A stretch of 50,007 nt of DNA from positions 1-50,007 of the forward strand of contig LDYB01000017.1 in NCBI GenBank assembly GCA_001442985.1. The letters are read 5' to 3'. The notes beneath the pieces were generated by a model. The model had not been told where the DNA came from. It was given only the letters and a program-made list of their open reading frames with translations, and made no database searches. Origin of the DNA: Armatimonadetes bacterium DC (lineage in GTDB: Bacteria > Armatimonadota > Fimbriimonadia > Fimbriimonadales > GBS-DC). The first letter of the stretch is position 1; every line of letters begins with the position of its first letter. The position numbers and the translations under genes were made by a program. Positions 22,285 through 36,227 of the stretch are shown here, one piece after another.

Positions 22285-23754
22285 TTAGCCGCGCAAGAGG
22301 GACAGCACCGTCTGCGGGATGTTGTTCGCCTGCGCCAGCACCGACATCCCCGACTGCATCAGAATCTGCTGCTTGGTGAACATGGTGATTTCGGCAGCGA
22401 AGTCGGCGTCGCGAATGGTGGACTCGCTGGCGGTAACATTCTCTTTGGCGACATTCAGCGAGCGGATGTTGCTTTCCAGCACATAGCGCTGGAACGACCC
22501 CATATCGCCGCGCATTTTGGAGATTTCAGAGATGGCGGCGTCAATAATGCGCAACGCCTCATCAGTGGAATTCTGCTGGGTTACATCGATGGTGGCGAGG
22601 CTTTTGCCCGGCACGACGGTTGTGCCCAGCTTGGTCGCATGCACATCCATCAGGGAGAAGCGCACGAACTGCCCTGCGTTCGCGCCGACCTGGAACTGGA
22701 GCATGCCTGCGGTCACCAGCGCGACGCGCTGAGCGCCGCTGCCCGCGTAGTCAAACAGGTTGCCGTTCTCGGTGAGCAAAATCGTGTTGCCGTAGCCATC
22801 GGTGAGTCGCAAGCCCGAGTCGCCCGTGCCGCGCCCCCCGGTGAAGGTAACCGTTGTGGGTCCCTGTACCGTGTTGACCGTTACCTGCGCTACGGCGTCG
22901 GTGCCTGCACCCGAAAAGTTGGTGCCTGCCGCCGCAGAAAGCACCCCCGTGGCGTCGTGGAAAGTGATTCGGTACTGGGAGCCATACTCTTTCTGGCGCA
23001 GGCGCACACTGTAGTTCGCGCCCACCGCCACAATCTCCGCCACCACCCCCGTCTGATTGGAAACTGCATTGATCTTATCCACAAACGAGCGCAGGGTGTC
23101 TGTCGTGTCCGCCTGAATCGACAGCCCGTTAATCACGATACTGCCCCCGACGGGCAGAAAGGTCTCTGTGGTGGAGAAGGTGCGTGTGGTGGTATACATC
23201 GCGCGGGTGGCTTGCGTCGTTACATTGATGGTGACATAGCCACTGGCGGTTGCCAGTCCATTGAAGAGTCCCCCAATAAATACCCCTGAAATCAGGTTCG
23301 GGTCGGTTACCTGTGCGGTGATGCCCGAGGTGCCGTCCAGCAGTTTTTTGGTGCCGAAAGCGGTCTGTTCGGCGATGCGGTTGATGCTGTCGATGAGGGC
23401 GCGGATTTGAGTCTGGTCCGCCATCAGCGCGGCGTAGTCGTTGACGCCTGTGTTGGCGGCGTGCAACACCAGCTGGCGCATCGTGCGCAGGGCGGTATGC
23501 ACCTCGTCCAAGGCGGCTTCGGCGGTTTTGATCATGTTGGTGGCGTCCTGCGCGTTATTGATGGCTTGCTGGAGTCCTGTAATCTGGGCGCGCAGGTTCT
23601 CGGAGATAATCAAGCCCGCAGGGTCATCGGCAGCGCGATTGACCCGCAGTCCCGAAGCCAGCCGCTCGATGGTACGCCCCAGCGCGTCGGAAGTCAAACT
23701 GACATTCCGCAAAGCGTTTTGCGCCTGTATGTTCGTATTGATTCGCAGACTCAT
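22285..23754 (-). CDS. flagellin
   Basis: The filament subunit, exported through the flagellar type III pathway. 489 aa. The N-terminal D0/D1 region (RINTNIQAQNALRNVSLTSD, RTIERLASGLRVNRAADDPA) and the C-terminal D1/D0 region (SNIRSLNVAKENVTASESTI, RDADFAAEITMFTKQQILMQ, ANNIPQTVLSLLRG) are strongly conserved. The middle of about 280 residues is a variable, beta-rich surface domain with a flagellar-hook-like IN segment (SIVINGLSIQADTTDTLRSF). No other flagellar gene is nearby. It has its own sigma-28-like promoter and terminator, so it is a one-gene unit. Confidence 0.95.
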   Translation of the reverse strand: MSLRINTNIQAQNALRNVSLTSDALGRTIERLASGLRVNRAADDPAGLIISENLRAQITGLQQAINNAQDATNMIKTAEAALDEVHTALRTMRQLVLHAANTGVNDYAALMADQTQIRALIDSINRIAEQTAFGTKKLLDGTSGITAQVTDPNLISGVFIGGLFNGLATASGYVTINVTTQATRAMYTTTRTFSTTETFLPVGGSIVINGLSIQADTTDTLRSFVDKINAVSNQTGVVAEIVAVGANYSVRLRQKEYGSQYRITFHDATGVLSAAAGTNFSGAGTDAVAQVTVNTVQGPTTVTFTGGRGTGDSGLRLTDGYGNTILLTENGNLFDYAGSGAQRVALVTAGMLQFQVGANAGQFVRFSLMDVHATKLGTTVVPGKSLATIDVTQQNSTDEALRIIDAAISEISKMRGDMGSFQRYVLESNIRSLNVAKENVTASESTIRDADFAAEITMFTKQQILMQSGMSVLAQANNIPQTVLSLLRG

Positions 23755-23804
23755 TCCATGAACCCCCTTGTGTTTGGGTTACTCCGCAAATTTGCTGGGG
23801 GATA

Positions 23805-23832
23805 TTATCGGAAGGGGGACACCCCTTCTTTA
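23805..23832 (-). promoter_or_regulatory. sigma-28 (FliA)-type promoter of flagellin
   Basis: Minus strand: TAAA (23829-23832), 16 bases, then TCCGATAA (23805-23812). This compares with the sigma-28 consensus TAAA-N15-GCCGATAA (7 of 8 in the -10 box, one base longer spacing). It lies about 50 bases before the flagellin ATG. Confidence 0.75.
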
Positions 23833-31441: not shown

Positions 31442-32221
31442 TCAGAACCCCACCGCCACGCATCCCGAATCGCCCCAGATGCGCTCGTCGGCGAGGGTGC
31501 GCTTCAACACGGCGCGCGCGGTCTCCTGATTCTCAGGCGTGACGCCCACCGCAATCACCACCGTCGAGCTGGAAACGCGCAAGCCAATCAGATCCTTCAG
31601 GATGTCCAGAATCGGGTCAGGGTCAGGGTAAATGCACACGCAGAAAATCCACCAGCGGAAGCATGGGAAATTGCATCCGCCCGAACCGCCCCCGCTCTCT
31701 TTGTTGTTGAAAACCGTGACCCATCCCACATTCTGTACCGGCGAGGCGCGGAACAGGTCACCAAGAGTGCGCACGGGGCGCGGGCTGGGACGAATGTCCT
31801 TTTTCTCAATCCCGCGTGCGTTCTCGCTGGGGTTCGCCTGTGGCGCAGGGGTCAACTGGGGTCCGAACACGCCGCGCAGGAACTCTTCAATCGGGATGTT
31901 CTGCCAGTTCGGGTTCGGGGTGGGCGCGGCTGTGCGTCCAGTGGCAGCGGATGGGTTCTCTTTAACCGTGGAAGACTTCTGTTTAATCGTGACCTGCGCT
32001 CCCTCCACCATCTGGGAAACCGTTTGCGGCGGCGTGGTCGCCTGATGGTAGAGGATGATGACCCGGAAGGGCGGCGTGGTGGTTTCGGGGTCTTTCGGGG
32101 CGGCCTCGCGCACATTGATTACCTGTGGGCGCGTGGGGGTGTTCTGCTGTTCTTCCGCATAGGCAGCAACGCCCAACAACGCCACAACACTCACTACAGT
32201 CAGCCAAAAGCGTGTGAACAT
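31442..32221 (-). CDS. secreted protein of unknown function
   Basis: 259 aa from the ATG at 32221, with AAAGGAGG upstream; a longer frame would add 11 residues before the ribosome site. Signal peptide FTRFWLTVVSVVALLGVAA then YAEE. The middle is Pro/Thr/Asn-rich and probably disordered (PPFRVIILYHQATTPPQTV, NPSAATGRTAAPTPNPNW). Near the C-terminus a cysteine/tryptophan cluster (GGCNFPCFRWWIFCVCIYPD) precedes DPILDILKDLIGLRVSSSTV and VVIAVGVTPENQETARAVLK. The last part recalls BON or secretin-like periplasmic modules; unproven. Single gene. Confidence 0.6.
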   Translation of the reverse strand: MFTRFWLTVVSVVALLGVAAYAEEQQNTPTRPQVINVREAAPKDPETTTPPFRVIILYHQATTPPQTVSQMVEGAQVTIKQKSSTVKENPSAATGRTAAPTPNPNWQNIPIEEFLRGVFGPQLTPAPQANPSENARGIEKKDIRPSPRPVRTLGDLFRASPVQNVGWVTVFNNKESGGGSGGCNFPCFRWWIFCVCIYPDPDPILDILKDLIGLRVSSSTVVIAVGVTPENQETARAVLKRTLADERIWGDSGCVAVGF

Positions 32222-32361
32222 CAACAAACCTCCTTTGAAAGTTTCTTGAGGCACAGGTATACCTGCGTCCAGCGTGCTTCAGATATTAGGTTAATTCGCC
32301 GTCAGGAAATCCATGACGATTAATGAGGATTATGGAATGTGAGAGGTTTTTCTGGAGTCCT

Positions 32362-32394
32362 GGTGCGAAGGGTTGCCCCCTTCGCACCGTTTTT
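32362..32394 (+). terminator. terminator-like hairpin downstream of the sigma-GGDEF gene
   Basis: GGTGCGAAGGG, TTGCC and CCCTTCGCACC followed by GTTTTT on the plus strand. The nearest gene ending here is on the minus strand, for which the T-run is on the wrong side, so the element may simply be a strong 3' stem for the minus-strand operon or block antisense reads. Confidence 0.4.
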
Positions 32395-32397
32395 CAT

Positions 32398-33684
32398 CTA
32401 TGCCGCCTGCTCGCTTGCTCGGTGGGCGGCGAGTCGCTCTTCAGCGTGCTGGAGCAGGTTCTCGAACTCCCTGCCGTCGCCCGGATAGAACGCCCAGCCG
32501 TAGTGCAGGCTGAAATGGCGACTGACGCTTTCCTGAAAAGTGTTCTGGAGCCATTCGGTAAGCGCCTCATATACGCGCTGGGCAATAGAGGGTGTATGTT
32601 CCCCAGCGTAGGGCAGAATCACGCCCAGCGAGGCGCGCCCGTAGCGTCCCACGATATCGGCTTTGCGCACGGTCTCGCGCACCACCGCCGCCGCCTGCAG
32701 CAGCAGCTCCCCCAGCGCGAACTCGCCCAGCGCGTCCAGCGTCTGGCGGTCGGAAACGAACTCAAAGATAGCGAACCCGACCACATTATGGTAGCGTGCA
32801 GAGCGCTGAACCTCTTCCCGCAGGCGTACCTGCAGGTAGTCATAGGAATACAGCCCTGTCTGGGGGTCTAAAATCCGCGCTTCGAAGTCGCCGCGCTCCA
32901 GCCCGCGCGCTCGCAAGCGCTGCTGATCCAGCCACTCCTCTTCGCTGATGATGCGGCGCAACTTCTGCGTGGCGTTGCGTAAAATGTGCGACACATAGTT
33001 GCACGAGATTTTGAGCATATGCGCAATCTCGGTCTGGTTGTAGCCCTCGTTGAAGAAGAGCTCCAGCACCTGGCGCTCTATCTGCTTCAGCTGACGCATC
33101 GCGTTTTCTATCACCACACGCTCCTCTATCGGCAGGTTGAAGGTCTGGCACGGCTCGCACTCCAGTTTCTCGATATCGTAGCCGTTCCACTCATCCTCAT
33201 CGTCAGAGCTCAACACATCGAGCGAGCTGACCTTGAACACCTCGCGCGTCATCAGCACATCTTCCACCGCCCTGGTGGTCATGCCCAGAAACTGGGCAAT
33301 CTCCTGGGTGGTGGGGGGGCGCCCGTACTGGGCGCTGAGTTCGTTAATCACCCGATTGATTTTGCTGTTGAGCTCTTGCAGCCACGCAGGCTCTTTGATG
33401 ATTTTGCCCTTATCGCGCAGGTAGTGTTTGATTTGCCCGATAATCAGGTGCGTGGCGTAGGTGGTGAACTTCACGCCCTTGTCGGGGTCATAAAGGTCCA
33501 GCGCGTTCAGCAGCCCGAGGTAGCCCTCTTGAATGAGGTCTTCAATCGGTTCCCCTGAGCCGACGAACTTACGGGCGGCGCTCTCCACCAGCCCCGATAG
33601 CTGAAGCGTAATCATATCCCGAATCTCCAGGTCGCGCGTGCGACAATATTCGCGAACCAGCTCTTCCGTGTCCCGCTTGATCAT
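32398..33684 (-). CDS. sigma-70-family factor fused to a degenerate GGDEF domain
   Basis: 428 aa. Residues 1-245 are a SigB/F/G-like sigma factor: region 2 (IEDLIQEGYLGLLNALDLYD, GVKFTTYATHLIIGQIKHYL), region 3 (YGRPPTTQEIAQFLGMTTRA) and region 4 HTH (IERQVLELFFNEGYNQTEIA, ISCNYVSHILRNATQKLRR). Residues about 272-425 have a diguanylate-cyclase-like fold (DPQTGLYSYDYLQVRLREEV, RKADIVGRYGRASLGVILPY), but the GGDEF signature is GRASL, so catalysis is not expected. The domain could sense a nucleotide or protein partner and control the sigma part. It ends the pilT-pilC operon, suggesting regulation of surface motility (inference). Confidence 0.85.
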   Translation of the reverse strand: MIKRDTEELVREYCRTRDLEIRDMITLQLSGLVESAARKFVGSGEPIEDLIQEGYLGLLNALDLYDPDKGVKFTTYATHLIIGQIKHYLRDKGKIIKEPAWLQELNSKINRVINELSAQYGRPPTTQEIAQFLGMTTRAVEDVLMTREVFKVSSLDVLSSDDEDEWNGYDIEKLECEPCQTFNLPIEERVVIENAMRQLKQIERQVLELFFNEGYNQTEIAHMLKISCNYVSHILRNATQKLRRIISEEEWLDQQRLRARGLERGDFEARILDPQTGLYSYDYLQVRLREEVQRSARYHNVVGFAIFEFVSDRQTLDALGEFALGELLLQAAAVVRETVRKADIVGRYGRASLGVILPYAGEHTPSIAQRVYEALTEWLQNTFQESVSRHFSLHYGWAFYPGDGREFENLLQHAEERLAAHRASEQAA

Positions 33685-33722: not shown

Positions 33723-34934
33723 TTATTGAATCGTGTTAATCAGCTTGAACATGGGCATCATAATCGAGATGGCGATGAAGCCGACGATTCCGCCGAGAAA
33801 CACAATCAGCAGAGGTTCAATCATGGAGGTCAGCCCCTTGATGGTGGCGTCCACTTCCTGCTCGTAGAAGTCGGCGATTTTGACCATCATCTCGGAGAGG
33901 CGCCCCGACTCTTCGCCGATGTCCATCATATGGATGACCATCTGGGGGAACAGATTGGTCGCGGCGAAGGGGGCGCTGAGGGGTTGCCCTTCGCGGATAC
34001 TGGCGCGCGTGCCCTCGATGGCGGTTGCCAGCACCGCGTTCCCCGAAGTTTGCCCCACAATCTCCAGCGTGCGCATCAGCGGCACACCGCTGGCGACCAG
34101 CGTGCCCAGCGTCCGCGCGAAGCGCGCCACTGCCAGCTTCAACACCAGCTCGCCGAAAATCGGCAACCGCAACTTGAGATAGTCATACTGATAGCGTCCC
34201 TTCGGCGTGCGAATGTAGCGCCGTATCACAAACAGCCCGCCCGCAATCGCGCCCGCAAGCATCCACCAGTAGCCAATCAGGAAATCGCTGGCGCTGAAAA
34301 TGAACTGCGTCATCGCGGGCATCTCCACATTCATGCTCGCGAAAATCTCCTTGAAGCGCGGCAGCACGAACATGAAAATCGCAATCAGCACCAGAAACGA
34401 GAACACCAGCACCATCACGGGATACATCATCGCCGACTTGATTTTCTGGCGCACTTCGAGGTCTTTCTCCAGGAAGGTGGCTAACCTGTCCAGAATCTGG
34501 TCTAAAATCCCTGCCACTTCCGCCGCGCGGATCATGTTCACGAACAGCTCGGAAAACACCGTGGGGTGCTTTTCCATCGCCTCGTTGAGCGCCATGCCCG
34601 ATTTGACATCCTTGCGCACGGCGTCGAGCGCGTGCTTGAGGGCAGGGTCTTTGGTCTGCGTGTAGAGGATATCCAGACAGCGCAGAATGGGGATGCCTGC
34701 ATCGATCATGGTGGCGAACTGACGGGCGAACAGCACCATCGCCTGCAGTTTGGGCTTCTTGGGCTTGCTGAAGCCCGAAAAGAGCTTCGCGCGGCTTTTT
34801 TGCTCCTCCACGCGCACCACATGCAGCCCCTGCTCGTGCAGTTTGGCAATCAGGAGCTGTTCGCTCTCTGCCTCCAGAGCGCCCCGCAGGACGCGCCCCT
34901 TGTTATCTACTGCTTCATATCCGAACACAGGCAT
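33723..34934 (-). CDS. pilC: type IV pilus inner-membrane platform protein PilC/GspF
   Basis: 403 aa with two GspF domains: VLFARQFATMIDAGIPILRC in the first and FARTLGTLVASGVPLMRTLE in the second. Membrane helices include MMYPVMVLVFSFLVLIAIFM and WWMLAGAIAGGLFVI, and near the C-terminus LLIVFLGGIVGFIAISIMMP. It anchors the ATPases PilB and PilT to the pilus base. It starts 14 bases after pilT and is followed by the sigma-GGDEF gene. Confidence 0.93.
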   Translation of the reverse strand: MPVFGYEAVDNKGRVLRGALEAESEQLLIAKLHEQGLHVVRVEEQKSRAKLFSGFSKPKKPKLQAMVLFARQFATMIDAGIPILRCLDILYTQTKDPALKHALDAVRKDVKSGMALNEAMEKHPTVFSELFVNMIRAAEVAGILDQILDRLATFLEKDLEVRQKIKSAMMYPVMVLVFSFLVLIAIFMFVLPRFKEIFASMNVEMPAMTQFIFSASDFLIGYWWMLAGAIAGGLFVIRRYIRTPKGRYQYDYLKLRLPIFGELVLKLAVARFARTLGTLVASGVPLMRTLEIVGQTSGNAVLATAIEGTRASIREGQPLSAPFAATNLFPQMVIHMMDIGEESGRLSEMMVKIADFYEQEVDATIKGLTSMIEPLLIVFLGGIVGFIAISIMMPMFKLINTIQ

Positions 34935-34948
34935 TGTGCATCTCCCTC

Positions 34949-36124
34949 CTACGCGGCGTTCTTGAGCAGCTGCATGAAGTTCTCTTTATCCATCGCGCGG
35001 TTGACTGCTTCCTCGAAGCTAATGTAGCCGTTGCGATGGAGGTCTGCCAGCACGCGATCCATGGTAATCATGCCCTGTCCCGCGTTGGTCTCCATAATGG
35101 AGTAAATCTGATGCGTTTTCCCCTCGCGAATCAGGTTGCGGATGGCGGCGTTTGCCAGCATCACTTCGATGGCTGCGATGCGCCCACCGCCAATCATCGG
35201 AATCAGCTGCTGGGCGAAGACCGCCTCGATGGTGTTGGCTAACAGCACCCGAATCTGCTCCTGCTGGTGTGGTGGGAACACATCGATGATTCGGTCAATC
35301 GTTTGCGGGGCGTTTCGGGTGTGGAGCGTGGCGAACACGAGGTGTCCTGTCTCGGCGAGGGTGAGCGCCGCCTGAATCGTCTCCAGGTCGCGCATCTCGC
35401 CAATCAGGATCACATCGGGGTCTTCACGCAACACCGCGCGCAGGGCGTTATGGAAGCTCTCCGTGTCGGCATGCACCTCACGCTGGTTCACCATCGCCCG
35501 CTTATGCGTATGCACATACTCAATCGGGTCTTCGATAGTGATAATATGGCATGGTCGGCTCTGGTTAATCAGGTCAATCATGCACGCCAGCGAGGTGGAT
35601 TTTCCCGAGCCAGTGGGTCCTGTAACCAGCACCAGCCCGCTGTGTTTTTTGACCACCTCGTAAATCACCGAGGGCAATCGGAGCGATTCGATAGAGGGGA
35701 TTTTGGAGGGGATGACGCGCATTGCTGCGGCGACCGCGCCTTTTTGCATGTAGACATTGAATCGGAACCGCGCCACATCCTTGACTGAGTAGGCGAAATC
35801 GATATCGTGATGGCGCTCAAACTGCTCCAGCTGGGTGTCGTTGAGCGCCTCGTAGACCAGTCGGCGCGTGTCGTGTTCGGTTAGGGGCTGGTATGGCAGG
35901 GGCGTGAGCTGCCCGTTCAGGCGAATCGTTGGGGGCAGCCCCACCGTGAGGTGCAGGTCGGAGCCGCCTCGCTCCACACATTCGCGGAGCAGGTCATCGA
36001 TGCTCACATCGTCGATGGGTTTCTCCTCACCGGCGATCCGCAGTTCCACATCGGCGGCGCCAGATGTGGCTTGTTCGCTATCGGGTTCCAGCCCTACCAG
36101 TTTTCTCCAGTCGAAGTGTTCCAT
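34949..36124 (-). CDS. pilT: pilus retraction ATPase PilT
   Basis: 391 aa from the ATG at 36124, behind GGAGGGG. The first 45 residues are an acidic extension (WRKLVGLEPDSEQATSGAAD) not found in most PilT. Then IDDLLRECVERGGSDLHLTV, Walker A VLVTGPTGSGKSTSLACMI (about 165), EDPIEYVHTHKRAMVNQREV, LREDPDVILIGEMRDLETI, TGHLVFATLHTRNAPQTIDR and the PilT-specific AIRNLIREGKTHQIYSIMET. No tetracysteine zinc motif, which separates it from PilB. First gene of the pilT-pilC-sigma unit; divergent from the gene at 36228. Confidence 0.94.
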   Translation of the reverse strand: MEHFDWRKLVGLEPDSEQATSGAADVELRIAGEEKPIDDVSIDDLLRECVERGGSDLHLTVGLPPTIRLNGQLTPLPYQPLTEHDTRRLVYEALNDTQLEQFERHHDIDFAYSVKDVARFRFNVYMQKGAVAAAMRVIPSKIPSIESLRLPSVIYEVVKKHSGLVLVTGPTGSGKSTSLACMIDLINQSRPCHIITIEDPIEYVHTHKRAMVNQREVHADTESFHNALRAVLREDPDVILIGEMRDLETIQAALTLAETGHLVFATLHTRNAPQTIDRIIDVFPPHQQEQIRVLLANTIEAVFAQQLIPMIGGGRIAAIEVMLANAAIRNLIREGKTHQIYSIMETNAGQGMITMDRVLADLHRNGYISFEEAVNRAMDKENFMQLLKNAA

Positions 36125-36227
36125 CGTCCCCTCCGTCGTGGTATGCTGGGGATATTTTGGGCAGGCGGGGTCAAAATCTTTACCGTCCAATTACGGGGGA
36201 GGGGCTGGCTTCGGGTACACTTGAAGT

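Follow-up and report, generated by a model that had tools for sequence, protein, structure and literature searches.

Control of an alternative sigma factor by c-di-GMP is already known from the WhiG-RsiG system of Streptomyces and Rubrobacter, where c-di-GMP is sensed by a coiled-coil anti-sigma factor, a protein of its own with the motif E(X)3S(X)2R(X)3Q(X)3D; in Rubrobacter, RsiG with c-di-GMP bound holds a WhiG sigma factor whose output is type IV pili (PMC8325347). Degenerate GGDEF domains that act as c-di-GMP receptors have also been described, in PopA and PelD, where the catalytic signature is lost and the GGDEF fold and the RxxD motif are kept (PMC10333796, PMC12564702). The output of PopA (REC-REC-GGDEF) is ClpXP-dependent degradation of CtrA and that of PelD (a membrane GAF-GGDEF protein) is production of Pel polysaccharide, and neither contains a sigma factor. 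The gene analysed here lies in a stretch of 50,007 nucleotides from Armatimonadetes bacterium DC (hereafter, the window) and joins a sigma factor and a degenerate GGDEF domain in a single chain that is kept across a phylum. This combination appears to be new: the open-access journal articles searched on sigma-GGDEF architectures and on c-di-GMP in Armatimonadota yielded no account of such a protein. ECF41 and CorE, which are ECF sigma factors, likewise have a regulatory domain fused behind region 4, of the SnoaL-like or metal-binding kind. None of the sigma factors with fused C-terminal regulatory domains is known to us to carry a second-messenger receptor, and in the routes from c-di-GMP to sigma factors that we know of, a separate protein such as RsiG always stands between.

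The fusion gene and the domains of its product are the following.

33684..32398, minus strand: sigma-GGDEF fusion gene (428 aa; ATG at 33684, stop at 32398-32400)
33403..33597, minus strand: sigma-70 region 2 (residues 30-94; Pfam PF04542 Sigma70_r2, 67.1 bits)
33196..33375, minus strand: sigma-70 region 3 (residues 104-163; Pfam PF04539 Sigma70_r3, 45.2 bits)
32956..33102, minus strand: sigma-70 region 4 (residues 195-243; Pfam Sigma70_r4, 53.6 bits)
32416..32871, minus strand: degenerate GGDEF domain (residues 272-423; Pfam PF00990, 65.0 bits, cut-off 23.8)

All four domains lie in one frame and exceed their curated Pfam cut-offs, which places the protein in the sigma-70 family and bears out the original prediction of regions 2, 3 and 4 followed by a GGDEF-type domain; the coordinates given there are also correct. 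The nearest relative is 81% identical over 422 aa; the source assembly has 2.85 Mb, and among its close relatives those with names are MAGs of Fimbriimonadales and of other Armatimonadota. The description of the sigma part as SigB/F/G-like stands for the nearest named subfamily and not for membership, the score on TIGR02980 (SigB/SigF/SigG) being 168.7 bits, below the curated cut-off of 234.35. FliA/WhiG is more distant (TIGR02479, 116.8 bits; cut-off 189.6). Regions 2, 3 and 4 and overall similarity are thus shared with these groups, whereas the scores below both cut-offs, the recognition helix and the extra GGDEF domain set the fusion apart. The region 4 recognition helix, ISCNYVSHILR, is nearly invariant in the fused family and reads ISQMHVSRLQ in unfused SigB-type paralogues. 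On a tree of homologues, strong purifying selection was found on the sigma signatures, including the recognition helix, and region 2 contains many zero-change columns. The N-terminal part has the sequence of an alternative sigma factor of the SigB/F/G group and would work as one, binding RNA polymerase and a promoter class of its own.

The distribution of the fusion was examined across genomes. By a family profile search, the full-length protein was found in 200 of 291 Armatimonadota genomes and 119 of 156 genera; in the first set searched, 53 of 61 genomes matched at E <= 1e-60, and all 44 homologues scanned singly contain sigma-70 r2, r3 and r4 together with GGDEF. A sequencing error or the merging of two genes, which would have undone the prediction, is thereby ruled out. 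Short patterns applied to 84,980 species genomes, a search that may pass over distant cases, matched only Armatimonadota and unclassified MAGs, and no plasmid record covers both the sigma and the GGDEF parts. The RsiG motif is absent from all 80 fused-family members inspected and from the six frames of the window. In two assemblies the fusion gene is broken, by an early stop near residue 336 (G047, L126 4920-6253) or by split frames near residue 178 (G274, L230 2370-4004), reflecting either a pseudogene or an assembly error. Stand-alone SigB-type sigma factors occur in deep Armatimonadota families (L214-L229, L231-L233). They were considered as unfused orthologues and rejected; having the ordinary SigB recognition helix and no pilT-pilC arrangement in the stretches examined, they look like paralogues.

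Within the GGDEF domain, two short motifs have had different fates.

32626..32640, minus strand: GRASL at the position of the catalytic GGDEF signature (residues 349-353; position checked)
32656..32667, minus strand: I-site RKAD (R340, D343), the RxxD motif for c-di-GMP binding (position checked)

The replacement of GGDEF by GRASL had been noticed in the original prediction. GG[DE]EF was found in none of 77 diverse homologues (<97% identity; tree length, 38.9 substitutions per site), and the metal-binding Asp of cyclases is Glu308 in the fusion, so that neither of the two marks of a diguanylate cyclase is present. RxxD occurs in all 77. No change was inferred on the tree at R340 or D343, compared with a median of 30.5 for the GGDEF domain, 20-44 for the former catalytic columns 349-352, and 34 for column 308. 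Among 65 diverse GGDEF domains (alignment A2), the R and D of this motif, to which RSSD of WspR aligns, are the sole invariant columns. The mere presence of RxxD is ruled out as a distinguishing feature, since 31 of 35 active cyclases encoded in the same genomes have it too, as product inhibition would require. On these alignments, the informative point is that RxxD is kept without exception where catalysis is gone. This pattern suggests that the domain is most likely a c-di-GMP receptor, neither cyclase nor relic, and that c-di-GMP would be its specific ligand, which lends comparative support to the nucleotide-binding role proposed earlier. By sequence and model, the domain shares with receptors of the PopA/PelD type a GGDEF fold, a lost A-site and a conserved RxxD.

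The fold itself is predicted with confidence. Modelled alone with 65 homologues, the GGDEF domain gave a pLDDT of 95.7 and a pTM of 0.90, and the PDB entries that match it best are GGDEF domains (E ~3e-11, TM ~0.76-0.80), including PleD with bound c-di-GMP (2wb4, TMq 0.80); a C-terminal domain of some other fold, the second way in which the prediction could have failed, is thus excluded. In the full-length AlphaFold2 model, the GGDEF part superimposes on PleD with c-di-GMP with a Z of 19.0 and an rmsd of 2.2 over 155 aligned residues, and the overall mean pLDDT of 81 and pTM of 0.44 leave the relative placement of the domains uncertain. The cyclases PleD and WspR, which are among the best structural matches, have the GGDEF fold and the I-site in common with the fusion; the catalytic site is lost only in the latter, and in PleD and WspR the GGDEF domain is paired with a response receiver and not with a sigma factor.

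A further conserved element lies on the first helix of the GGDEF domain.

32803..32838, minus strand: helix face Y283, R287, E290, E291, R294 (family-specific conservation)

In the fused family, R287, E291 and R294 are each kept in 79 of 80 proteins, E290 in 78 and Y283 in 74, whereas the corresponding positions vary among 30 active cyclases from this phylum. The secondary I-site arginine (WspR R198, PleD R313) lies on the same helix, and its counterpart in the fusion may be R294 or R297. Conservation of this face solely in the fused family indicates that a protein interface probably matters, and the domain might accordingly be a protein-interaction or dimerisation module that binds no nucleotide, with RxxD kept for contact with the sigma part or a partner. 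We regard this as unlikely: the two residues without a single change coincide with R and D of the established c-di-GMP motif, and three genomes without any cyclase have lost the fusion gene too. It is far less probable still that the GGDEF part is a functionless remnant decaying after an accidental fusion. Its catalytic residues are indeed scrambled in every homologue, but the reading frame and fold are kept phylum-wide, RxxD is invariant and the family-specific helix face is conserved, a pattern that speaks strongly against a relic.

The co-occurrence of the fusion with other GGDEF proteins was also compared. Besides the fusion, the source genome encodes five GGDEF proteins whose GGDEF/GGEEF signature is intact, and no EAL phosphodiesterase was found in it; every fusion-bearing genome in the comparison has further GGDEF proteins. 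The three genomes mentioned above (G026, G043 and G044; Fimbriimonadales, 98-99% complete) have neither the fusion nor any GGDEF domain, and the same holds for two less complete ones (G141, 77%; G035, 73%). Five others (G041, G135-G137 and G139) lack the fusion and have 4-11 GGDEF domains (11 hits in G041), so that a strict co-loss of fusion and cyclases is only partly true. Loss of the messenger system is accompanied by loss of the fusion gene, and the reverse does not hold; the fusion-less genomes, all of which keep pilT-family genes, are close relatives and represent few independent events. In G026, G043 and G044, the whole c-di-GMP synthesis system appears to have been lost within a genus.

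The connection between the two halves bears on how a receptor could act on the sigma factor.

32893..33003, minus strand: long helix 228-264 leading from region 4 into the GGDEF domain (AlphaFold2 prediction, moderate confidence)

The structural matches to DgcB (6ttr, from residue 232; rmsd 11.3) and GCN4-WspR (3i5c, from 235; rmsd 5.9) begin within this helix and are loose there. The linker between the sigma and GGDEF parts differs in length by lineage, in clusters of 25/26, 30 and 35/36 residues; steps of about five residues speak against a rigid-lever mechanism and make a flexible tether with docking likelier. Taking these features together with the conserved residues, we consider it fairly likely, irrespective of sign, that the GGDEF domain is a c-di-GMP receptor gating the sigma factor to which it is fused. 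The domain would bind c-di-GMP made by the intact cyclases of the genome, probably as the usual intercalated dimer bridging RxxD to arginines of a second surface. Through Y283, R287, E290, E291 and R294, the bound ligand may hold two protomers together in a cross-link or bring the GGDEF domain to dock on the sigma part. The GGDEF domain follows immediately after the recognition helix of region 4, and for this reason binding would alter how well that region can reach RNA polymerase and DNA.

The gene neighbourhood points to a possible output. Two genes for type IV pili stand directly upstream on the same strand, in agreement with the operon originally proposed.

33723..34934, minus strand: pilC, T2SSF family inner-membrane platform protein (Pfam PF00482, 223.6 bits; 38 nt upstream of the fusion gene)
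34949..36124, minus strand: pilT-type retraction ATPase (PF00437, 152.4 bits)

The pilT start is likely the ATG at 36124 and not the TTG at 36190, given the conserved MEHFDWRKLVGL. Of 29 named loci, 23 have the fusion gene directly 3' of pilC and in the same orientation, often as pilB-pilT-pilC-sigma, and in four of the six remaining loci a contig end cuts close upstream. The pilC-sigma arrangement recurs in many other families, and in one family (G025, G029 and G021; L181-L183) an intact cyclase gene adjoins the pair. Several families (L106, L108-L110, L112-L114, L116, L119, L122 and L123) have no pil genes alongside, so a strict link between the fusion and type IV pili is only partly true. 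The earlier suggestion that the operon reflects control of motility or attachment therefore draws support from operon arrangement and synteny, for an association that is common and not universal; judged from this gene order, the pili are probably the genes governed by the fusion. Downstream of the fusion gene, two further elements were observed: a strong 12-pair hairpin just past the stop (32361-32389, with a T-run on the plus-strand side) and an ORF of 270 aa (31442-32254, minus strand) that begins like a signal peptide, matches nothing in Pfam and possibly encodes a secreted product.

A candidate promoter precedes the operon.

36153..36182, minus strand: FliA-like promoter TAAAGATT-N12-GCCCAAAATA ahead of the pilT-pilC-sigma operon (footprint in relatives)

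The pattern TAAAG(A/T)TT-N11/12-GCCCAAAATA is kept in 10 of 11 aligned sequences upstream of pilT and has no mismatch in five of six genomes of the family; with up to three mismatches allowed, 0.04 matches would be expected by chance per window. Overall it is like the flagellar class (TAAA / GCCGATAA; PMC8325347), from which its -10 element differs consistently. Autoregulation of the pilT operon by the fusion protein is possible. The source genome also encodes a separate FliA (L002 at G000:C4; 241.6 bits, cut-off 189.6), by which such a FliA-like promoter could be served instead, making FliA an equally simple candidate. A genome-wide motif search for a regulon returned the pilT operon as the recurrent perfect match; the other recurrent matches, about 360 bp before cysS and about 300 bp before a glycosyltransferase gene, form no interpretable pattern, and enrichment beyond the immediate family is small (4/62 vs 2/222 upstream regions). 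Within the window, a site TAAAG...CCGATAATA (23832..23803, minus strand), closer to the flagellar type than the pilT promoter is, was also seen some 50 nt ahead of the gene for flagellin (23754..22288). Separately, a conserved non-coding stretch of about 370 bp was noted before cysS in three genomes (L207 1501-1875, with equivalents in L193 and L209); it begins with a flagellar-type promoter-like site, contains a strong G+C hairpin, has no match in Rfam and could be an undescribed small RNA.

The sign of the predicted switch is a separate question. Because the sign is not fixed by sequence, and c-di-GMP often promotes attachment, c-di-GMP could act as an activator that frees region 4 from autoinhibition, high levels then turning attachment pili on. 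This opposite-sign variant of the receptor model is a real possibility to which we give somewhat less than even weight; against it, the nearest precedent, WhiG-RsiG with its control of type IV pili, is inhibitory (PMC8325347). By analogy with WhiG, we lean modestly towards c-di-GMP switching the sigma factor off. Under inhibition, the pilT-pilC-sigma operon, possibly along with further surface genes, would be expressed when c-di-GMP falls.

The level of the protein may be set by a second feature, at its very end.

32401..32406, minus strand: C-terminal Ala-Ala, candidate ClpXP degron (conservation, tmRNA tag likeness)

The -AA end, which resembles ClpXP degrons, is present in 64 of 74 distinct fused proteins and in 7 of 584 other ORFs, counts that come from related sequences and are not independent. 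The tail before it varies freely. The same end was found in none of 44 pilC, 3 of 29 pilT and 18 of 30 active cyclase products of the phylum; the last figure rules out a sigma-specific tag, and a degron common to GGDEF proteins is a reasonable reading. Intact Fimbriimonadales cyclases (L067-L071, L148-L176) tend to have Ala-Ala ends, possibly a phylum-wide degron on c-di-GMP enzymes. The source genome encodes ClpX and a tmRNA tag, ATPNYALAA, that itself ends in ALAA, and changing the C-terminal alanines of CtrA to aspartates stabilises that protein (PMC4433202). Proteolysis might on these grounds be the main control, with c-di-GMP occupancy deciding destruction by ClpXP through Ala-Ala, as for CtrA and PopA in Caulobacter, PopA being itself a degenerate GGDEF protein with RxxD. 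Such a scheme is compatible with the receptor model and differs in the step controlled. As the principal mechanism, it seems doubtful: the Ala-Ala ends of the cyclases make a tie to the sigma switch unnecessary, no adaptor has been identified, and 12 of 77 fusion homologues lack the end. In the receptor model, ClpXP would probably be an additional determinant of protein level, acting through the Ala-Ala end, a weaker part of the proposal than ligand binding.

Taken as a whole, there is about an even chance that these proteins form a phylum-wide class of sigma factors, each with its own c-di-GMP receptor in one polypeptide, with no separate anti-sigma factor and with a lifetime set by an Ala-Ala degron common to cyclases. 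If a sigma factor does carry a fused receptor in this way, it would be the shortest route from c-di-GMP to promoter choice, and it would offer a natural two-domain part for messenger-controlled transcription. For the Armatimonadota, a widespread phylum with little genetics, the fusion may provide a defined regulator of surface life with obvious point mutants (R340A, D343A and AA to DD).
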